A stretch of 22,937 nucleotides of DNA, taken from positions 1 to 22,937 of the IMG/VR virus record IMGVR_UViG_3300037087_000149; one strand, given 5' to 3'. The first letter of the stretch is position 1. The number at the start of each line of letters is the position of its first letter. Positions 9,856-21,877 of this stretch are shown here, one piece after another. Below the pieces are notes generated by a model that was given only the letters and a program-made list of their open reading frames with translations, did no database searches and was not told where the DNA came from. The stretch comes from a virus. A program made the translations under genes and the position numbers.

Positions 9856-10522
9856 GCGCGGATCTCCTCCGGATCGAGTTCTTCAACGCACCCAGCAGCT
9901 GGATGGTCCGCGCCAGCGGCTTCGGCAAGTTGTGCATCGTGTTCCGCGCCATCAGGGCGCGACGGGTAATCAGTTCGAGATTGTCGAGGCGAATGTCGCC
10001 CTTGTCGCCGTTGCGGAAGGCGAGCGCGTGCCCACTCGGCATCGGTCCATGGACCGACTCCCACAGGACCAGATGGACGGCACGCCAGCGCCGCTGGCGC
10101 GGCAAGCCGTCATTGATCTTCCGTTCAAGATAGCCGTCCTTGCTCACCCGTTCGGTGCCATTCGGCGTCCACCGTTTCAGGGCCACGCCGTGACGCTCGC
10201 CGCGCTTGAACTGCGTCTCGCGCATCCGGCCGCGAAACCATCCCGGACGGCGGAGGCCTTTGTTGGCTGGCGCGTGGCCCTTCGGAAACCGCGTCCTGGC
10301 GCCGACCTGGTCGCCCCGCCGAAGCCGGCACGCGTGCGGTCCCGCGAGGTAGGCCGCGCTCTTCGTCAGCCCGAGCGATCGGGCCCGGTGGTAGGTGGCC
10401 GTCAGCGACCGTCGCAGGCGCCCGGCCAGCGCGCGCGTGGGCGTGTTCGGGTAGGCGAGGCGCAGGCTCTCGTCGTCCTCGGCACTCCACAGCCGTTTGC
10501 CCGCGCGGAATCGGTCAGGCAC
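9827..10522 (-). CDS. HNH endonuclease with SANT/Myb-like and NUMOD-like segments
   Basis: A 231-residue predicted homing-type nuclease. Residues 11-54 (LWSAEDDESLRLAY ...) resemble a SANT/Myb DNA-binding helix set. Residues 75-115 carry the KGHAPANKGL and TQFKRG repeats common between such domains and HNH. The HNH_3 core is about 147-187: WRAVHLVLWE, then GHALAFRNGDKGDIRLDNLELITR. GTG 10522 starts eight bases inside the end of the ParB gene, with AAGGGG upstream. Free-standing HNH genes are mobile in phages; its tight overlap with both neighbours is unusual for a recent insertion. Confidence 0.92.
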   Translation of the reverse strand: MPDRFRAGKRLWSAEDDESLRLAYPNTPTRALAGRLRRSLTATYHRARSLGLTKSAAYLAGPHACRLRRGDQVGARTRFPKGHAPANKGLRRPGWFRGRMRETQFKRGERHGVALKRWTPNGTERVSKDGYLERKINDGLPRQRRWRAVHLVLWESVHGPMPSGHALAFRNGDKGDIRLDNLELITRRALMARNTMHNLPKPLARTIQLLGALKNSIRRRSAHEEQDRRSV

Positions 10523-12320
10523 GCCGACGCCCCTTGCCCTTCTTGCCGCTCGCCGTCTTCGCGGGCTTCTTTCCCGCCGATTTCCTCACCGGCGCCGGCT
10601 TCTCGTTTTCGACACAGGAGGTGCAGAGCGTTCGGCCGGCGTCGGCCCATCCGCATCCCTCGGGACACGGGTCGTGTTCGGTGCACCCGCAGACGCGGCA
10701 GGTCCCGGGCTTCGGTTTGGCGGCCTTGCCTCCCGTCTTCGCGCGCGTGACCGTCTTCCCTGGCTTCGCGGCCGCGAGCTTCTTGCTGGCCTTCTCCTCA
10801 GCCGCGGCCCGGAGCGGCCGCTCGATCGCTTTCACGTCAACCTTCAGCCGCGCCGCGGCCGCCAACAGCGCCTTCCGGCTGCCGCCGTCGGCGCCGGCGT
10901 AGGCGTAGTAGGCCACCGTCGCGTCCGGTCCGAGGGTCGCCGCGACCAGCAGCTGCGCGATCTCCCGCTCCGGCGCCTCCGCCAGTCGCTTCAGCGCGAC
11001 ACCTCGGTAGTCGAGGCTTCCCAAGGTCTTCTTCGGCAGCACCCAGCCGAGCGCCGCCCAGACCGCCTTCCAGTCGTCGTGCGTGACGCGCTTGGCCATG
11101 GCGATCGCGACCTCACGGAAGTCGAGGTCCTTGAGCTTGCCCGTGGCCGCCACAATCGCCGTCAGGATGGCCCGCCGGATCTTGGTCTCGAGTTCGGCGG
11201 CGCGCGCCTTGGCCTTCTCGCCGGTGTTTCGCCGCTGGCTGGACGCCGCGTTCTGCCGTTCCCATTTCTCCGCGTGTACCTCGCAGGCCTTCCCGGCCGT
11301 GCAGATCGTTTTGACCGAGCCGATCGGCCCTCGGTCGCTGTCGACCACGACGGCCTGGACGGTGTGCGGGCACTTCTTCTTGGCGGCATCGCGGTACTGT
11401 TCGCGGACAAGCACGCCGCCGAGCTTCTTCTTGTCCTGGGGACTGAGGTAGTAGCGCTCCGAGATCCGCGCGGCCGTCGACCCGTCTGCCTCGAGCGTCG
11501 CCAGCGTGCGGTCCAGATGGGCCTGCAGCTTCGCGTGGTAGCAGTTCGGGTCGGTGCAGGTATCGCCCTTCGCGACGTCGGGGAAGAGCGCCGGCGCATT
11601 CCCCGTGCGCTTCGGGCAGGTCCGGCAGGCGCCGGCCGCCGGCACCAGCGTGTCGTCATCCTTCTTGAACGGCGCCGCGTGCAGGTCCAGCTGCAGGTGG
11701 TCGTTGATCCATGCGGCCAGGTCCCTGACCGATCGCGCGTGGCGCTGGCCCTCCTTGGTCGGATCGCCGTAGTTGTGGAGGAAGCATTGCTCGAGGGCCG
11801 CCTTCTGGTCCGCCGGCTGCAGCCTGGCGAGCAGGATCGCGTGCGCGGCGGTCAGTTCATTCGAGAGGAAGGCCTTCCGGGCCGCCGGGCCGAGGTCGAT
11901 CAGCTTGAGGCGCTGGTAGACGTAGGTCACGCTCTTGCCCACCTTGGCGGCGATCGCCTCGACCTCGTAGTGCGCCCGATCCATCAGCGCCCGGTAGCCG
12001 TTGGCTTCCTCGAGCGGATGCACGTCCTGGCGTTGGAGGTTGTCGATCACCATGAGCTCCAGCGCCTGCGTGTCGTCGAGGGTGCGGACGGTCACGGGCA
12101 CCTCGGTCAGGCCGGCGGCCTCCGCGGCCCGGCGCCGGCGGTGGCCCGCGATGATCTCGTGGTGCCCGTCGACGGGCCGCACGAGCAGCGGGTTGAGGAC
12201 GCCGTTGGCCTTGATGCTCGCCGTCAGATCCGCCAGGGCTCCGACGTCGTAGTGCTGCCGGGGGTTGAGCGGCGATTCCTTGAGCGACGTGATCGGCAAT
12301 GTCGACGTTTCATGTTCCAC
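10515..12320 (-). CDS. ParB-like protein with C-terminal zinc region
   Basis: A 601-residue member of the ParB/RepB/Spo0J family. Residues 8-78 are the ParB N-terminal domain with GHRRRRA at 59-65 (the CTP-binding box II region of ParB proteins). NLQRQDVHPLEEA at 94-106 leads to a helix-turn-helix near 120-140 (VEAIAAKVGKSVTYVYQRLKL). The central region holds CRTCP and CTDPNCYH clusters, and the C terminus holds CRVCGCTEHDPCPEGCGW ... LCTSC followed by a Lys/Arg-rich tail. GTG 12320 is preceded by AAAGGAG. No ParA is seen, so partition is doubtful; silencing, nuclease or regulatory roles are possible. Confidence 0.93.
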   Translation of the reverse strand: MEHETSTLPITSLKESPLNPRQHYDVGALADLTASIKANGVLNPLLVRPVDGHHEIIAGHRRRRAAEAAGLTEVPVTVRTLDDTQALELMVIDNLQRQDVHPLEEANGYRALMDRAHYEVEAIAAKVGKSVTYVYQRLKLIDLGPAARKAFLSNELTAAHAILLARLQPADQKAALEQCFLHNYGDPTKEGQRHARSVRDLAAWINDHLQLDLHAAPFKKDDDTLVPAAGACRTCPKRTGNAPALFPDVAKGDTCTDPNCYHAKLQAHLDRTLATLEADGSTAARISERYYLSPQDKKKLGGVLVREQYRDAAKKKCPHTVQAVVVDSDRGPIGSVKTICTAGKACEVHAEKWERQNAASSQRRNTGEKAKARAAELETKIRRAILTAIVAATGKLKDLDFREVAIAMAKRVTHDDWKAVWAALGWVLPKKTLGSLDYRGVALKRLAEAPEREIAQLLVAATLGPDATVAYYAYAGADGGSRKALLAAAARLKVDVKAIERPLRAAAEEKASKKLAAAKPGKTVTRAKTGGKAAKPKPGTCRVCGCTEHDPCPEGCGWADAGRTLCTSCVENEKPAPVRKSAGKKPAKTASGKKGKGRRRA

Positions 12321-13107: not shown

Positions 13108-13307
13108 ACGGTGCGCTCCCGGCTGCCGGCCACGTCGTGGAATCGGATCGGGGAGAAGTCGCACCGTTCCCGCTCAGGCCACGAGTAGCCGAGCGCCGCG
13201 CAGTGCCTGATCTGTCGGCAGTCCTCACAGGTTCGCCCGTCGGGAAGGGCCATGGCATCCTCGGCGAGCTGGCGAACGGTGGGCGGCGATGAAGGGGCGG
13301 CGGTCAC
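13104..13307 (-). CDS. Small Cys-rich phage protein
   Basis: A 67-residue protein with the spaced cysteines CEDCRQIRHC ... ERCDFSPIRF, a pattern that recurs in small phage proteins (C-x2-C-x5-C ... C-x-F/W-x-P-x-R-F) and probably binds zinc. GTG 13307 overlaps the DUF5131 stop (GTGA); the longer frame to 13532 is only the shadow of that gene. It also overlaps the next start by four bases (ATGA). It may cooperate with the DUF5131 enzyme, judged only from coupling. Confidence 0.75.
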   Translation of the reverse strand: MTAAPSSPPTVRQLAEDAMALPDGRTCEDCRQIRHCAALGYSWPERERCDFSPIRFHDVAGSRERTV

Positions 13308-14215
13308 GGTCTCACCTCCGGCATCTGCCGCACACGCAAGTCTTCGGGCCACTCGGCGGGATCGCCGCCCTTCGAGTCCTTGATCCAGAAGCCGACGTTG
13401 ATCAGGGCCGTTGGAAAGTCGCGGGCCTCGGGCAGGAACCCGATCGGCCGCGCGCCGACCTGTTTCACAAACGCCGGGACGTCGGCCGCCTGGCATTGGC
13501 TCACGATCGACCGAACCCACGCGACGTCGCACGGCCGGGCCGCCACTCCGCTCTCGCCGCCGACGATCACCCAGCTCAGAATGTCGTTATGCGGGGGCTC
13601 ATCGAATCCGCTGGCCAGGTAGATCGAGAGGTCGATCGGCTCGAGTAGCGGCTCGGCGCTCACGAACCGATGCGCCGCCGGCGTCTGGAGCAGGATCGGG
13701 ATCCGTTCGTCGGCCGTCGCCTGGTTCTCGACGCTCACGCCCAGCCAGACATTGGGAAGCGGCCACCGATCTGCGTCGCCGACGATGATGCCGGTTCCCC
13801 CATAGGCGCGCTCCGGTTCCGAGCCATCGTGTGTGATCCACCCGAGGCCGCCGCCGTTTCCACACCGGCTGAGCCAAGCGAGCATCCTCTCGGGTCGCTT
13901 CGTCAGCACCTGGAACGTGTGGCCGGGCGCCAGTCGCATCCTCTCAAAGACTCGCCCAATGAAGGCGTCGGGCACGTCCGAATGGAAGAGGTCGCTCATC
14001 GAATTGACGAACACGCGCCGCGGCTTCCGCCAGTGCAGCGGCACGTCGAGTCGCGAGGGGTGACAGCGGACGTCAGTGAACGCGCGCCCTTTCCATGGCC
14101 CCATCTGCCGATGCGCGAACGTCGCGGCGTAGCAGTGCGCGCAGCCGGCGCTCACCTTCGTGCAGCCGTCCACCGGGTTCCAGGTTTCATCGGTCCACTC
14201 AATCTTGCTGCTCAT
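13304..14215 (-). CDS. DUF5131 / phage Gp37-Gp68 family protein
   Basis: A 303-residue protein opening MSSKIEWTDETWNPVDGCTKVSAGCAHCYA, with Cys18, Cys25 and Cys28 (C-x6-C-x2-C), the three-Cys signature of this family. Downstream are PRRVFVNSMSDLFHSDVP, FQVLTKRPERM, NVWLGVSVENQ and SWVIVGGESG, all hallmark blocks. The family is thought to be related to radical-SAM enzymes, but no reaction is established. ATG 14215 overlaps the upstream zinc protein stop (ATGA), which fixes the start. I see no TcmP-type partner in the window. Confidence 0.94.
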   Translation of the reverse strand: MSSKIEWTDETWNPVDGCTKVSAGCAHCYAATFAHRQMGPWKGRAFTDVRCHPSRLDVPLHWRKPRRVFVNSMSDLFHSDVPDAFIGRVFERMRLAPGHTFQVLTKRPERMLAWLSRCGNGGGLGWITHDGSEPERAYGGTGIIVGDADRWPLPNVWLGVSVENQATADERIPILLQTPAAHRFVSAEPLLEPIDLSIYLASGFDEPPHNDILSWVIVGGESGVAARPCDVAWVRSIVSQCQAADVPAFVKQVGARPIGFLPEARDFPTALINVGFWIKDSKGGDPAEWPEDLRVRQMPEVRP

Positions 14216-14643
14216 ACCGGACGCTCCGCGTTCCTGCCGGCGTCGTAGCCGCGGCGCAGGATGGTCTCGACGTCCACACCCAGGGCGGCCAGCGCGCGGA
14301 AGGATCGGTGCATGACCGGATCCGCGTTCACGTTCCGCCGGTACCGCTTGACCCACTCTTCAAAGTTCAGCAGGCCGAGGCGCCGGCTCGCGGCGACCGA
14401 CGGCGACGATCCCAGGGCGCGGGTCACCATGGCGCCGATTCGGGTGGCGGCGTACTCCGTGAGGTGCGCTCGATCCCGATCGGTCCAGTCGATCACCTCG
14501 CCCCGCGCCCGCCGGGCCCAACAGATGCTGCAGTCGCAGATCGGACGGGGCAAGCCGGCTCGATGGCCGCACTGCGGGCAGGCCTTCTGCGGACGTCCCC
14601 CGTCGTCGACGATTTCCCGGCCACACCAACGACATTTCAACAT
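14212..14643 (-). CDS. Zinc-ribbon hypothetical protein upstream of DUF5131
   Basis: A 143-residue protein: MLKCRWCGREIVDDGGRPQKACPQCGHR forms a classic four-Cys zinc ribbon (two C-x2-C knuckles), followed by CDCSIC. The rest is helical and charged, with FEEWVKRYRRNVNADPVMHRSFRALAALGVDVETILRRGYDAGR. ATG 14643 follows AAAGGAAGAG. It is coupled by ATGA to the DUF5131 gene, so a shared role (for example cluster delivery or substrate binding) is possible but unproven. Confidence 0.83.
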   Translation of the reverse strand: MLKCRWCGREIVDDGGRPQKACPQCGHRAGLPRPICDCSICWARRARGEVIDWTDRDRAHLTEYAATRIGAMVTRALGSSPSVAASRRLGLLNFEEWVKRYRRNVNADPVMHRSFRALAALGVDVETILRRGYDAGRNAERPV

Positions 14644-17159: not shown

Positions 17160-17912
17160 TCACACGCCAGCTCCCCACCGCGACTCCGGGTCACCCACCG
17201 GCGGGGGGACTCCGGTGAGGCTGCCGCTGTCGAAGGCGCGCGTCGCCCTGGTCAGGTCCCGGTGCCGCTGGATGTAGGCCTGTTCGGCCTGTGCGTAGTC
17301 GCCGGGCAGTAGCGTGGGGAGGCTGTCCGCCAGCGCGGTGAACGGGGCACAGGCGCAGCGGTCGCGCGCGCCGGCGTTCATCAGGTCGCGTTGCTCCACC
17401 CAGAGCATCACGCGATCGGCGACGGTCACCAGGTAGGGCTCCCGGAGGAGCAGGCCGAAGTGCCGACAGACGCAGGCCATCATCCGTCGCTCGGCCTCGA
17501 GGTAGGCCGTCCCCAGCCCCTCGGCGTGCTTGATCGGATGCGGGAGATCCACCAGGAGGTATTCGGAATCGTCGTGATGGAGGCCCCAGAGCGCGAGCGC
17601 CATGATGCCCAGGTCCCCGTGCTCCGCCATCAGGCTGCGACAGGTGCAGGCGCCGACCTGGCCGAGGGGAAGGCAGTCCGGCGCGTGCGGCACCGGGCCA
17701 TGCAGGCCTCGCGCCAGCTGCTCCACCAGGTGCGAGACGCGCCCCGCGTGCTCGGCGACGCTGTAGGGCACGGTCGTGTGCCCGTTGAACCGGTTGATCC
17801 GCGCCAGCGCGTGCGCCACGTCGACCAAGTCGATGTCTTCGGGCCGCGGGTCGAGCGGCCAGACGTACCGCCCCGAGTAGGTGCGGAAGGATTCGTTGCG
17901 AGTGCCCCTCAT
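17160..17912 (-). CDS. HD-domain phosphohydrolase with a Cys-containing insertion
   Basis: A 250-residue HD-superfamily enzyme. His55 in SVAEHAGRV, His112/His113 with Asp114 in GLHHDDSEYLLVDLPHPIK, and a later Asp in VADRVMLWVE provide the H...HD...D metal set. YfbR-like members act on nucleotides, so dNTP or nucleotide turnover for phage replication is plausible. Residues about 70-95 are an insertion with Cys80, Cys89 and Cys91 that I do not recognise from the family. A further Cys pair (CAC near 185) is also present. ATG 17912 follows CAGGAG and sits 20 bases past the helicase-loader stop. Confidence 0.9.
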   Translation of the reverse strand: MRGTRNESFRTYSGRYVWPLDPRPEDIDLVDVAHALARINRFNGHTTVPYSVAEHAGRVSHLVEQLARGLHGPVPHAPDCLPLGQVGACTCRSLMAEHGDLGIMALALWGLHHDDSEYLLVDLPHPIKHAEGLGTAYLEAERRMMACVCRHFGLLLREPYLVTVADRVMLWVEQRDLMNAGARDRCACAPFTALADSLPTLLPGDYAQAEQAYIQRHRDLTRATRAFDSGSLTGVPPPVGDPESRWGAGV

Positions 17913-17931: not shown

Positions 17932-18699
17932 TCAGATCGCGGGCCGTTCGGATGGCCAGTCGAAGGCGATGAACTTCCCGCCGGATTCGCGGAGGCGGTC
18001 GACGGCCCGCTCGCCGAGATACCGCTGCAGGTCGTCCCGGTCGACGTTGCCGATGATGACCGTGGGCTTCAGGTCCAGGTACCGCGTGTCGAGGACCTTG
18101 AAGAGTTCGACCACTTCGCCCTCGGTGCCGTACTGCACGCCCACCTCGTCCAGCACGAGCAGGTCGACGCTCGTGTAGTCGGCCAGCGCGTCCGCTTCCC
18201 GGCGATCGGCGTCTTTCCGCCAGGTCGCGCGGATCGCTTCGATGAGTTCGAAGGCGCGCACGTAGCGGCCGGAACGGCCGTCCGCGATCACGCGCTTCAG
18301 GATGGCGAGCGCCAGGTGGGTCTTCCCGGTGCCTGGCTGGCCGGCGAAGAGCAGACACCGCCCCTCGGCCCCGTGCACGGCGAAGCGCTCCGCGTAGTCC
18401 GTCGCCGTGAGGAGCGCGATCCGCTGCTCGCGCGTCGTCGCCCGGTAGTCTTCAAACCGCTTGCCCATGAACCGGAGCGGCACGCCGGCACGTTCCAGCC
18501 GGCGCAGGGCTCGAGCGCGCACGTCGGCCGCCTTGCGCTCGGTTTCCCGTTCGGCCAGGCAGCTCGGGCACCCGCTCCAGTCGACCGTGTCGAAGAGCCA
18601 CAGGCTCCGCGACGTGTAGGCGCCGTGCCGGGCGCAAGAGGCCTCGCGGCTCTCGCTGCCCGCCATCAGGTGCCGTGCCATCTCGCCGAGTGAGGTCAT
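17932..18699 (-). CDS. DnaC-type helicase loader ATPase
   Basis: A 255-residue AAA+ protein. Walker A is GQPGTGKT at 120-127, Walker B LLVLDE at 180-185, a sensor at IIGNVD 215-220 and a likely arginine finger near Arg235 (RAVDRLRESGG). The N terminus carries Cys22 and the Cys44-x2-Cys47 knuckle, as in IstB/DnaC-like phage loaders that contact helicase or initiator. It should load the host DnaB on the origin melted by the initiator, whose gene is immediately upstream and coupled by ATGA. No phage helicase gene is visible, which fits use of the host helicase. Confidence 0.93.
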   Translation of the reverse strand: MTSLGEMARHLMAGSESREASCARHGAYTSRSLWLFDTVDWSGCPSCLAERETERKAADVRARALRRLERAGVPLRFMGKRFEDYRATTREQRIALLTATDYAERFAVHGAEGRCLLFAGQPGTGKTHLALAILKRVIADGRSGRYVRAFELIEAIRATWRKDADRREADALADYTSVDLLVLDEVGVQYGTEGEVVELFKVLDTRYLDLKPTVIIGNVDRDDLQRYLGERAVDRLRESGGKFIAFDWPSERPAI

Positions 18700-19571
18700 A
18701 TCCGGTAGGTCCCATCCGCCAGTTGTTCCGCGCCGCTCGTGACGTCCTTGACGTGCCGCGCCGGCGGCCCGGGCGAGGCGCGGCCCAGGCTCGGCCGCGG
18801 GGTGTCCTGGGCCCGCTTCAGCCAGTTCACGGCGAACCGCAGGATGCCGTCTTTGGTTTTACGGTTCTTCGGGGAGGCCTCGAGCCAGCCGGCCATGGCG
18901 AGCACTTCTCGGGGGACGTCGACGCCGGGGTATTGCAGCGTCCAGCGCTCGATCTGGGCCGTGGTGATGACGAAGACCGACCCGCCAGCAACCGGCAAGG
19001 CTGTGAACCCGACCGGCTGGGCCGGTTCAGGCGCGAACAGCAGGTCGCGCGCGGGCGGTACTTCTACTACTACTTGTGAAGTACTCTCTGAAGTACTCTC
19101 TTTACTAGATGCTCGATTTTCACCATCGGTTGTCGGCTTTTCACCATCGGTTGTCGGCTTTTCACCATCGGTGAGCGGGTTTTCACCATGGGTGCTGCCA
19201 CCATCGGTTGTCGGGTTTTCACCATGGGTCACCGGCGCGTCGGCGTAGGCGGCGATCGCCTCTGAGAGCGCGTCCAGGTCCACCCGGTACCAGAGCTGGC
19301 GGCTCAGCCCGCGCCGCTCTTCCTGCCAGAATCGACAGGTCCGCAACTTGGCCCGGGCGGTCCGCTGTTCCTCCCGGGTCAGGCAGGTTTCGGCCGTCCA
19401 ATCGATGTGGGTCTTGAAGAACCAACCGTCGCCGGACGGCAGGCGCTCGGCCCAATAGACCGCCTGGCTGAGCATGAGGCCGGCGTTTGCCCCGCCCACC
19501 AGGTGGCCGAGCGTCGGGTGGAACGCCACGGGGCGCACCAGGAGAGCCTTGACCGTGTCTCTCAATCGCAT
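18696..19571 (-). CDS. Replication initiation protein, winged-helix N-terminal domain
   Basis: A 291-residue protein. Residues 1-110 (RLRDTVKALLVRPVAFHPTLGHLVG ... FKTHIDWTAETCLTREEQRTARAKLRTCRFW) are a winged-helix DNA-binding domain of phage initiators. A repetitive linker follows, built from THGENP and TDGEKPT units, then Ser/Thr-rich sequence. The C-terminal third (ITTAQIERWTLQYPGVDVPREVLAMAGWL ... LRFAVNWLKRAQ) resembles the loader-binding part of such proteins. ATG 19571 is inside the end of the DUF1064 gene, with GGAAAG upstream; the frame to 19751 is shadow. The linker DNA is the iteron array described separately, so the gene would encode its own target, as lambda O does. Confidence 0.9.
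   Translation of the reverse strand: MRLRDTVKALLVRPVAFHPTLGHLVGGANAGLMLSQAVYWAERLPSGDGWFFKTHIDWTAETCLTREEQRTARAKLRTCRFWQEERRGLSRQLWYRVDLDALSEAIAAYADAPVTHGENPTTDGGSTHGENPLTDGEKPTTDGEKPTTDGENRASSKESTSESTSQVVVEVPPARDLLFAPEPAQPVGFTALPVAGGSVFVITTAQIERWTLQYPGVDVPREVLAMAGWLEASPKNRKTKDGILRFAVNWLKRAQDTPRPSLGRASPGPPARHVKDVTSGAEQLADGTYRI
19061..19119. other. AT-rich tract beside the iterons, probable DNA-unwinding element
   Basis: This is the one clearly AT-rich stretch of the window, about 37 percent GC by my count against roughly two-thirds around it. It contains the direct repeat GAAGTACTCTCT twice in tandem (19078-19089, 19090-19101) and a CTACTACTACT run. It lies immediately next to the iteron array, as the melting region does at lambda ori. 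It also codes for a Ser/Thr linker, and there is no protein-level reason for it to be AT-rich. Confidence 0.6.
19117..19236. repeat. Iteron array in the initiator gene, probable replication origin
   Basis: Six copies of CACCATSGGT occur at 19121, 19142, 19163, 19184, 19199 and 19220, spaced 21, 21, 21, 15 and 21 bases apart. The first two full 21-base units are identical, and most copies carry TTTT just before the core. The core contains ACC...GGT symmetry. It codes for heptapeptide-like TDGEKPT repeats. Tandem initiator sites inside the initiator gene next to an AT-rich tract is the lambda ori plan. Binding by the encoded protein is inferred. Confidence 0.75.
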
Positions 19572-19930
19572 ATGTCTTTCCGTTCCCACCCGCGCTTCGT
19601 CCGCTGGTACCGCACGAACCGAAACTGGGGATAGAGCCGCGCCGCCGCGACGAGCTTCACCGCCGCGTCCTCGGTGATGTAGGGGCCCTTCACCTCGTGC
19701 ACCTCGAGCGAGCGATCGGCGAGCTGCACGAGGAAGTCGGGCGCGTACCACATCTGCCGGCCGTCCGGGGTCTTGCCGATGAAGAGTTTCAGGACCTGGA
19801 ACCCGACCGACAGGATCTCGCCGGCCTTCTGCTGCCAGCAGAGCGTGGTGTAGTGCGCGGCTTCCGTCCGGTTCATCGTGCCGGCCGGGAGGTGGCCCAG
19901 GGCAAGGAAGCTGGCCGGGATGCCGCTCAT
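19562..19930 (-). CDS. DUF1064 nuclease-like protein (PD-(D/E)XK type)
   Basis: A 122-residue protein with the DUF1064 signature: MNRTEAAHYTTL near 19-30, YAPDFLVQLADRSLEVHEVKG at 62-82, then a helix ending YPQFRFVRYQR. Asp65 with Glu79-x-Lys81 fits the PD-(D/E)XK nuclease site. Phages of this group carry it among recombination genes, where a Holliday-junction or branched-DNA endonuclease role is likely. The start overlaps the upstream stop (ATGA); the frame to 20128 is shadow. Confidence 0.88.
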   Translation of the reverse strand: MSGIPASFLALGHLPAGTMNRTEAAHYTTLCWQQKAGEILSVGFQVLKLFIGKTPDGRQMWYAPDFLVQLADRSLEVHEVKGPYITEDAAVKLVAAARLYPQFRFVRYQRTKRGWERKDICD

Positions 19931-20595
19931 AGCCGCCCCTGTGCCCGTGCTGGTGCCGCCGGCGCCTTCGGTGGTGGGCGCCGGGCCTTCCGCGTGGCCA
20001 GCGCGCCCGCCAGGGCGCTGCTGCGCGATTCCTTGGGGAGGGCGCGAGGCGGCGGTATTGGGACGGGCGCGGCCGCCGATGTCGCCCGGTCCGCCTCGCC
20101 GAGGGTACGCTCGACGGCCTCCATGCACTCGGCCACCAGATCCGCCGGTAGGAGGCGCAGCCCGAGTTGCCGCACGACCACCGAGGTCAACTGCGCTTCC
20201 CTCGCCGCCAGATCGTCCTCTGTCGCCGTGACTTGGAGGACCTGTCCCCAGGCCGTCGCCTGGGCGCCGATCACGCGCTCGCGCGGGCCAGCCTTCGCGC
20301 GCTCGACGATCTTCTCAATGGGAACTTCCCGCGAGTACTCGGCGCCGCCCTCGAGGTCCGCGACGACGACGCGGACCGTCCGGGTCTTCGTGGTATCGGT
20401 GACGATGACGGAGTCGATGCGCACGTTCCCCCAGCGCGCCAGCGCGGCCTCCACGAACTTCACCGAGGCGCGCGTGACCGTGTCGCCGCTGCCGTCCTCC
20501 ATCGGCTTCGTGTACCGAGCCAGGCGGGCGAAGGTCGGCCGCCGGCAGTCGGCCAGCAACTTGGCGCGCGCCTGGTCTTCATGGCGCGGGGTCAT
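19927..20595 (-). CDS. Conserved phage protein, putative recombination partner of the exonuclease
   Basis: A 222-residue protein. Its core (RASVKFVEAALARWGNVRIDSVIVTD ... TVRVVVADLEGGAEYSREVPIEKIVERAKA ... ATEDDLAAREAQLTSVVVRQLGLRLLPADLVAECMEAV) belongs to a phage family often found beside exonuclease genes. The FAE/FVEAAxRAWGN pattern recalls single-strand annealing proteins, but no family annotation is certain. The C terminus from about 165 is low-complexity Pro/Ala/Lys/Arg, like an unstructured tail. It is coupled by ATGA to both neighbours, within the exonuclease operon. A single-strand annealing role is inferred from position and that pattern. Confidence 0.85.
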   Translation of the reverse strand: MTPRHEDQARAKLLADCRRPTFARLARYTKPMEDGSGDTVTRASVKFVEAALARWGNVRIDSVIVTDTTKTRTVRVVVADLEGGAEYSREVPIEKIVERAKAGPRERVIGAQATAWGQVLQVTATEDDLAAREAQLTSVVVRQLGLRLLPADLVAECMEAVERTLGEADRATSAAAPVPIPPPRALPKESRSSALAGALATRKARRPPPKAPAAPARAQGRL

Positions 20596-20843
20596 TCACT
20601 CGGCTCCGTTGATGCTGGCGGGACCACGACCAGATCCCCGGGGCGTTCGAGCGAGTTGATCCCGTCGCGACCCGCGATGTAGCGCATGGCCCCGTACCAA
20701 GCCAGCAGACCGACGAGATCGCGGAACCGCAGCAGCACCTGCGTGTCGTCGCTCCGCTCGCCGGCAAATGGCGGAGACTCCCTGGAGAAAATGAATCGCC
20801 GCGCCGCGTCGTACTGCTCGGCGGTCACATCTGTGCCTTTCAT
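20592..20843 (-). CDS. Small hypothetical protein between exonuclease and recombination partner
   Basis: An 83-residue protein, MKGTDVTAEQYDAARRFIFSRESPPFAGERSDDTQVLLRFRDLVGLLAWYGAMRYIAGRDG ..., with a helical middle containing one hydrophobic patch (LVGLLAWYGAMRYIAG) too short and broken for a clear transmembrane helix. No family recognised. Four-base overlaps on both sides (ATGA with the exonuclease stop and ATGA with the next start) make it very likely a real operon member; it may modulate the exonuclease. Confidence 0.78.
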   Translation of the reverse strand: MKGTDVTAEQYDAARRFIFSRESPPFAGERSDDTQVLLRFRDLVGLLAWYGAMRYIAGRDGINSLERPGDLVVVPPASTEPSE

Positions 20844-21877
20844 GCCGTGGCCTTTCGAGTCCACCAGCCCCGGAGGTAGGCCTGGTGCTGTTCGGTCGTG
20901 GTGAAGCGTGCAAGCTGCGCGGGCGTCGGGCGCAGAAAGCGGGCGAGGGCTTCCCAGTCCGTGACGCGCATCGGCGCCGGCCGCACCCAGCCCACGCAGC
21001 CGAAGGCGCCGCGGGCCTTGTCCGCGCTGCGTACGATTGCCGCGAGCTGGTTCCGGGCCGCGAGTTCGTCCGTCTCCGCCTGGTGGCGCCGCTGCTGCGC
21101 CTCCCGGTACTGCTCGGCCAGGTCGTTGATCCGCGCCGTGGCCGTGAGCACGACGCCCGTGCTCTTCGCGTAGGTCTTGGCGAGGTAGGCCTGCCAGCTC
21201 GAAGATCCGTCGATCGCGGGCGGGCGGCGCTTCTGCACGTGCTCGCGCCAGAACCGGACCGCCGTGTCAGTGATTTCCGTTTCGAGGGCGCGGTTGCGCT
21301 GGACCTGGTAGAGGGCCAGGTTGCCGCCGATCCGCGCGCCGGCGCCGATCAGGGCACCCACGTCCCACACCGGCACCTCGGCGACGCCCATGTAGTGCGC
21401 GCACTGGGTCAGGTAGTGCAGGGGAATCTGGTCGGTGCCCTGCTCGCCCCAGTCGTCCACCGCGTGATCGCTGGCCGTCTTCAGCTCGAGCCCCCGCGCG
21501 AGCGTCGGCATCAGGCCGTCCAGCGTGGCGAGCAGGAACGGGTGGAGGGGATGACGCACGAGAACCTGCGCCCTCGGGCCTGTCCCGAAGATCCGCACGC
21601 GCCGCTTCGGGAAGGCGCGCGCGATCGCGGCGCCGCGCAGCAGGTCCCCCTTCGCCAGGCCGTGGAGCTCGGCGTACCGGCGGGCCATCCCGTCCTCGAG
21701 GTAGGTCCCCCACCACATCGCCTCGTTCACCGGCGCCGCCTCGCCTTCCCCGATCTTGTCGAGATATACGTCCAGCGCGGTGCGCCACGGATTCAGCCCG
21801 AGGAGGGCGGCGACGTCCGTGCCGGTGATGCCCTGACGCCGCGCGGCCAGCCAGGCCGTGCGATCGCGCGCGGTCAC
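20840..21877 (-). CDS. YqaJ / lambda-exonuclease-type recombination nuclease
   Basis: A 345-residue protein. WLAARRQGITGTDVAALLGLNPW (9-31) is the conserved opening of YqaJ nucleases. Asp120 in ATLDGL, Glu131-x-Lys133 in GLELKTA, and QIPLHYLTQCAHYM (150-163) supply the PD-(D/E)XK metal site and the following glutamine motif. It should degrade one strand of linear double-stranded DNA and hand single strands to an annealing partner. The C-terminal 120 residues (from about DLAEQYREAQQRRHQAETDEL) are a helical extension. GTG 21877 overlaps the HTH gene stop (GTGA). Confidence 0.93.
   Translation of the reverse strand: MTARDRTAWLAARRQGITGTDVAALLGLNPWRTALDVYLDKIGEGEAAPVNEAMWWGTYLEDGMARRYAELHGLAKGDLLRGAAIARAFPKRRVRIFGTGPRAQVLVRHPLHPFLLATLDGLMPTLARGLELKTASDHAVDDWGEQGTDQIPLHYLTQCAHYMGVAEVPVWDVGALIGAGARIGGNLALYQVQRNRALETEITDTAVRFWREHVQKRRPPAIDGSSSWQAYLAKTYAKSTGVVLTATARINDLAEQYREAQQRRHQAETDELAARNQLAAIVRSADKARGAFGCVGWVRPAPMRVTDWEALARFLRPTPAQLARFTTTEQHQAYLRGWWTRKATA

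Follow-up and report, generated by a model that had tools for sequence, protein, structure and literature searches.

A probable lambda-plan replication origin inside a phage initiator gene, with a shared 12-nt repeat proposed as its opening element

The stretch of viral DNA analysed here (the window) comprises positions 1 to 22,937 of IMG/VR record IMGVR_UViG_3300037087_000149, and its genes given below with coordinates are all on the minus strand. The gene under study (18696..19571) encodes a 291-aa protein, P0001, which matches phrog_9773 ("replication initiation O-like") at E 2.5e-33. The gene next to it encodes a DnaC-like AAA+ helicase loader (P0002, 17932..18699; phrog_50 E 2.6e-64, PF01695 IstB_IS21 E 1.5e-15), as an earlier note on this sequence had said, and is no homologue of lambda P. 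Directly after the loader gene comes a weak match to a YfbR-like 5'-deoxynucleotidase (17160-17912), and just upstream of the initiator is a gene (19562-19936) whose small product has a match to Holliday-junction resolvase phrog_190 / DUF1064. Together with a RecE-like exonuclease gene (20840-21877), the latter makes up a predicted recombination-replication cluster beside the initiator. The record also encodes a DUF5131 protein (13304-14356; PF07505, E 2.4e-82), a ParB-like protein of 601 aa (10515-12320) and a terminase.

In its AlphaFold model, P0001 has three parts: a winged-helix N-domain (aa 1-111; 19239..19571), a disordered linker (aa 112-187; 19011..19238) and a small helical C-domain (aa 190-256; 18804..19004) with three helices at 204-256. 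Most of residues 21-110 are modelled at a pLDDT of 90-98; values drop under 50 over most of the linker and are about 80-90 for 190-256. The modelled disordered linker coincides exactly with the position of the repeat array and other DNA elements described below, i.e., the whole proposed origin lies inside it. The N-domain assignment draws on the predicted fold and on Foldseek matches to winged-helix proteins, all of them weak (zero below E 0.001), including the plasmid initiators 5kbj, 4pql and 4pt7, of which we take the last two to be pSK41 Rep. Compared by sequence with solved structures, the N-domain gave no match. Pfam gave no domain match to P0001 up to E 1, RepA_N (PF06970) included, so by sequence the protein is not a RepA_N family member. 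Its N-domain profile match and predicted winged-helix fold place it among O/DnaD-like winged-helix phage initiators, and 39 of the 41 aligned members of its family match phrog_9773. The DNA-binding DnaT domain PF17948 is found in three of those 41 and is absent from P0001, the C-domain of which is possibly DnaT/DnaD-like. From the model, the winged-helix domain is the likely iteron-binding domain and the C-domain the likely contact to the loader or helicase.

The linker-coding DNA carries six exact copies of CACCATSGGT, starting on the plus strand at 19121, 19142, 19163, 19184, 19199 and 19220. Their spacings of 21, 21, 21, 15 and 21 bp are just those given in the earlier note (21 bases, once 15), and the 22,937-bp window holds no further exact copy. 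On the coding strand, these exact motif matches are iteron 1 (ACCCATGGTG, 19220..19229), iteron 2 (ACCGATGGTG, 19199..19208), iteron 3 (ACCCATGGTG, 19184..19193, 15 bp from iteron 2) and iterons 4 to 6 (all ACCGATGGTG; 19163..19172, 19142..19151 and 19121..19130), with iteron 6 closest to the proposed unwinding element. In a lambda-type origin, every repeat is an imperfect inverted repeat of about 18-19 bp. The inverted-repeat arms of the window's iteron core are only 3 bp long (ACC...GGT), while those of L004, the top match among the relatives, are 6 bp (CGGCAA...TTGCCG). Synonymous redraws of the same peptide using phage codon usage (20,000 draws) gave at most two copies vs the six observed, and GC3 is 0.34 in the linker (0.10 in its AT-rich part) vs 0.88 in the remainder of the gene. 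Searching other phages and viral contigs for the window iteron gave five single chance matches, none as an array in an initiator, so its conservation has no close relative to be followed in. As judged from sequence, the window origin would be a new member of the lambda plan with a unique iteron. Cumulative GC skew is nearly flat at 19.1 kb and makes no turn there, but the skew is uninformative on the origin, since a single strand carries nearly every predicted gene and the record may be incomplete.

Adjoining the iterons on the side of the loader gene is the lowest-GC 60-mer of the window (19063..19122, minus strand), the proposed unwinding element. Its GC is 0.367 (window mean 0.683, sd 0.062), and the next-lowest 60-mer in the 22,937 bp has a GC of 0.433. 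The tract contains a tandem 12-mer, with two exact copies of TGAAGTACTCTC at 19077-19088 and 19089-19100. The 12-nt repeat of the family, (C)AGAGABTACNNC, is present here in two copies. Copy 1, AGAGAGTAC(TTC) at 19093..19101 on the minus strand, has a PWM score of 15.5 bits vs a 99% shuffle limit of 10.6, and copy 2, (C)AGAGAGTAC(TTC) at 19081..19089, 12 nt from copy 1 on the same strand, scores 19.0 bits. The earlier note had seen here a roughly 60-base AT-rich tract with a tandem repeat, which holds true as far as it goes; the tract is not merely AT-rich, however, as a conserved 12-nt sequence, absent from lambda, sits there.

We gathered 117 homologous genes, 45 of which have non-redundant linkers. 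The collection was made mainly via N-domain patterns; one search also offered two window linker peptides, but its matches fell on the N-domain and two C-domain matches were excluded, so the linker played little part in the selection. The 12-nt repeat is common to 39 of the 45 homologues, with near-matches in the other six, despite their differing iterons. In the aligned tracts, for example, the window has AGAGAGTACTTC twice, while relatives have AGAGACTACTTC, AGAGATTACTAC, etc. Of the 45 linkers, 36 contain the core AGAGABTAC, with 78 copies between them, compared with a mean of 4.0 and a maximum of 9 in 300 synonymous-codon shuffles. Split by codon phase, the counts are 5, 3 and 70, each exceeding its null maximum (4, 1 and 7). 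Three further genes have the element beyond an inserted HNH-like domain. Five of the remaining six carry tandem one- or two-letter variants (e.g., AAAGATTAC or AGAGAATAC), and the sixth, L020, has a single AGAGACTAA. Neighbouring copies are 10-12 nt apart in 40 of 42 pairs, and in five genes (L004, L019, L038, L174 and L187) they are 10 or 11 nt apart, which puts each copy in a different frame from the one before.

In these relatives, the neighbouring gene is DnaB-like, DnaC-like, P-like or of family phrog_6028. Partner classes were sorted by PHROG counts, since the seed search mixed DnaB with DnaC proteins, and on that sorting the element is present beside 7/9 DnaB-like, 3/4 DnaC-like and 8/10 phrog_6028-type partners. 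The element thus travels with the initiator, not with the neighbouring gene.

The repeat extends well beyond these homologues. A scan of IMG/VR for its 22-nt tandem form found at least 120 stretches. Among the matches listed, all 134 are on the coding strand of an open frame, most are visibly in the linker of an initiator, and 85 of 93 distinct intact genes match the winged-helix profile. All 134 also share a single codon phase. The tandem form of the 12-mer therefore probably has a preference for the peptide ETTTETT too, i.e., some peptide constraint may act as well. A 37-nt consensus matched 55 of 50,697 phage records at E ≤ 0.1, spanning phages of Proteobacteria, Firmicutes and Cyanobacteria; their hosts are Acinetobacter, Staphylococcus, Klebsiella, Pseudomonas, Burkholderia, Erwinia, Bacillus, Geobacillus, Synechococcus, Lactobacillus, Vibrio and Xanthomonas. 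Matched genes with an informative annotation are nearly always replication initiators, with a few called "transcriptional regulator". The genes of Staphylococcus phage 37 and Lactobacillus mv4 have the tract and, upstream of it, repeats in several frames at 22-23 bp intervals; their N-domains are homologous to the P0001 family (hhalign 98.6% and 92.9%, respectively). Tract and repeats are arranged in this way in Geobacillus phage PT9.1 and Bacillus phage PM1 too, with weaker N-domain similarity in PT9.1 (62%). In the accessible literature, where subscription journals and preprints are thinly covered, searches on phage origins within initiator genes led to lambda-type, plasmid and oriC work, and we found no description of the 12-nt repeat.

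We propose that this repeat is a sequence-specific strand-opening element. The alternative that survives best, which we regard as unlikely though far from negligible, accepts the origin as real but holds that the element is not specifically read, being simply a stretch that melts readily and fits a hydrophilic linker (ETTSETT) as well. It can appeal to the GC of the element, which is below that of its own gene in 36/36 cases, and to lambda, which seems to need only an AT-rich tract. Against this, AGAGABTAC is about 44% GC and near-invariant across phyla, and plain A/T runs, as in lambda, would melt more easily. The identical letters also recur in other frames at 10-11 nt spacing, and two control 37-mers (the same letters reversed and another rearrangement) gave 0 matches in the 50,697 phage records. 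As comparison between the genes shows, selection appears to act on the sequence of the element and not on AT-richness alone.

For the iterons, the corresponding question is whether DNA or peptide is conserved, and the window alone could not decide this because all six of its copies are in one reading frame. Were it a peptide repeat only, the array would have arisen by tandem duplication and would encode a flexible T[DH]GE(N/K)PT linker, with the DNA likeness left by recent duplication, and the window's spacings, all multiples of three, do give clean peptide repetition. The relatives are different. Forty of the 45 non-redundant homologues have a repeat array separating the winged-helix domain from the tract, and 38 of these 40 arrays use two or three reading frames. 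Iteron sequence varies between phages, but almost all arrays have a period of 22-23 bp. As this is not divisible by three, each copy is in another frame than its neighbour; in L004, one DNA repeat is read in all three. Array spacings of 22, 23 or 46 bp make up 89% in real linkers vs 1.9% in codon-shuffled ones, and arrays of at least three copies occur in 73% of real genes vs 0 of 450 codon shuffles. Since the iterons of relatives occupy two or three frames, the conserved thing is the DNA and not the peptide, and the linker peptide would be mainly a by-product of carrying that DNA. The earlier note had proposed that nucleotide conservation in relatives should exceed what the peptide needs, and these multi-frame arrays, along with the 12-nt repeat shared in three frames, bear this out. 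The window itself also speaks against a peptide repeat, as its linker uses rare codons (GGT 5%, GAT 22%, ACT 2%) in a gene of otherwise high GC3 and its least GC-rich 60-mer is exactly beside the array. We therefore reject the peptide-repeat explanation on the frame evidence from relatives and consider it very improbable. The window departs from its family, however, in its 21/15-bp spacing and single frame, and in this phage taken alone, selection on the peptide could have played a part.

A further case comes from small Bacillus velezensis plasmids, of 8.4 kb in one case, which carry a roughly 180-bp piece that is 76% identical to the iteron and 12-mer part only of the phage PM1 initiator. The piece (L253:1408-1579 in plasmid pBamNAU-B3a, NC_022531.1; five similar plasmids matched) has three iterons at intervals of 23 and 22 bp as well as the 12-mers, but lacks the regions for the winged-helix and C-terminal parts. 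No annotated gene covers it in the plasmid gene table, which is incomplete. Because the plasmids are nearly identical in size, the capture was probably one event. The segment has the look of a phage origin captured apart from its initiator, and its retention in the absence of the protein agrees with an origin that works as DNA; perhaps it lets the plasmid use a phage's replication. That array and element remain joined on this plasmid, and that dozens of relatives place the array inside an initiator by replication partner genes and an opening element, leaves hardly any room for the array being an operator or partition (ParB-like) site and no origin, even though palindromic tandem sites can be operators and the window has a ParB-like gene.

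The preferred reading, in which we have high confidence on the strength of the window and its 45 homologues, is a lambda-plan phage replication origin inside the initiator gene, as the earlier note had suggested. Phage lambda, with its origin in gene O and its loader gene P, likewise has iterons mid-initiator gene, an AT-rich tract on the loader side, and adjacent initiator and loader genes. It differs in iteron sequence and in having the P loader where the window has a DnaC-like one. Lambda's iterons are annotated at 39034, 39054, 39078 and 39101, i.e., 20-24 bp apart, and the 15-bp interval of the window is outside that range. The claimed likeness to lambda is therefore upheld in arrangement (array, loader-side tract, initiator and loader are all present). 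As to protein ancestry, although PHROG names the family "O-like", lambda O as a single sequence against the winged-helix N-domain profile gives an hhalign probability of 0.1%, so homology is undetectable in this one-sequence test. P0001 is closer to DnaD-like and RepA_N-type winged-helix initiators than to lambda O. The lambda tract is A-rich with no significant match to the 12-nt element; lambda O was tried as a carrier and rejected, since its best site (CAGAGAATTC, in the AT-rich region) scores 7.4 bits, below the 95% shuffle limit of 8.5. What appears new relative to the lambda plan is thus the sequence-specific opening element, which lambda lacks. Lambda O binds both its own iterons and single-stranded AT-rich origin DNA (PMC7466680), and by analogy this offers a lead for how the 12-mer may be read.

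Two other systems are also instructive. The pSK41 Rep protein has an N-terminal DNA-binding domain, an origin-encoded central linker and a DnaD-like C-domain, with four Rep boxes centrally in the rep gene and a linker whose protein stretch is dispensable (PMC5703833). P0001 has the same three-part layout as these RepA_N initiators, with the proposed origin in linker-coding DNA, and lambda O is alike in outline; P0001 differs in its phage context and in having its own loader. In Bacillus, DnaD recognises a single-stranded oriC motif, the DnaD element 5'-CTACTATTACTTCTACTA-3' (PMC10201434). As with the DnaA-trio / DnaD element of Bacillus subtilis, the phage has a short repeated motif in the proposed opening region, one that in Bacillus is read single-stranded. 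The DnaD element CTACTATTACTTCTACTA is similar to YTACTWC within the phage repeat, and each AGAGABTAC copy has in its complement TnnT, the DnaD core motif. However, the phage unit is 12 nt long with a conserved AGAGA, and opening would depend on phage iterons. Dependence on DnaA boxes was rejected, as these are essentially absent (one DnaA-box-like site in all 45 homologous genes). We treat the resemblance as an analogy that may serve as a lead only.

In the mechanism we envisage, the winged-helix domain would bind the six CACCATSGGT iterons as an array, and the bound array would strain the adjacent 60-bp tract so that it opens. The tract carries two copies of the 12-nt element, (C)AGAGASTACTTC, through which one opened strand would most likely be held by the initiator or by a factor common to many bacteria. 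To judge from gene position and family, the C-terminal domain would then recruit the DnaC-like loader encoded next door, which would place the host DnaB helicase. More broadly, we lean, if only slightly, towards the view that a single sequence-specific opening element, (C)AGAGABTACNNC every 10-12 nt, is common to phages that have O/DnaD-like winged-helix initiators and infect unrelated bacteria, embedded in the initiator gene beside phage-specific iterons. It would probably be read single-stranded, either by one and the same protein surface or by one universal host factor, making it a phage counterpart of the DnaA-trio / DnaD element.

In the usual description, an origin combines specific binding repeats with an AT-rich tract that has no features of its own. 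The two halves of the origin seem to evolve oppositely here: the binding repeats vary by phage, while the 12-nt letters of the opening tract are retained in Gram-negative, Gram-positive and cyanobacterial phages alike and beside different partner genes. Because the iterons vary and the tract is constant, recognition of the opened origin strand is directly testable with small oligonucleotides and several initiator pairs. The motif could also mark replication origins in many unannotated phages, such as those behind the IMG/VR stretches found by the tandem form.

Five related initiators (L027, L031, L037, L168 and L177) have a domain inserted between the winged-helix domain and the origin-coding linker, which in four matches HNH endonuclease (PF01844) and in L027 is similar without a Pfam match; the 12-mers are still downstream of the insertion, as near-matches in L177. 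Six other initiators (L052, L075, L092, L130, L163 and L165) have no significant match to the winged-helix profile of this family yet carry the same tandem 12-nt element, so the element may extend to more distant or unrelated initiators.
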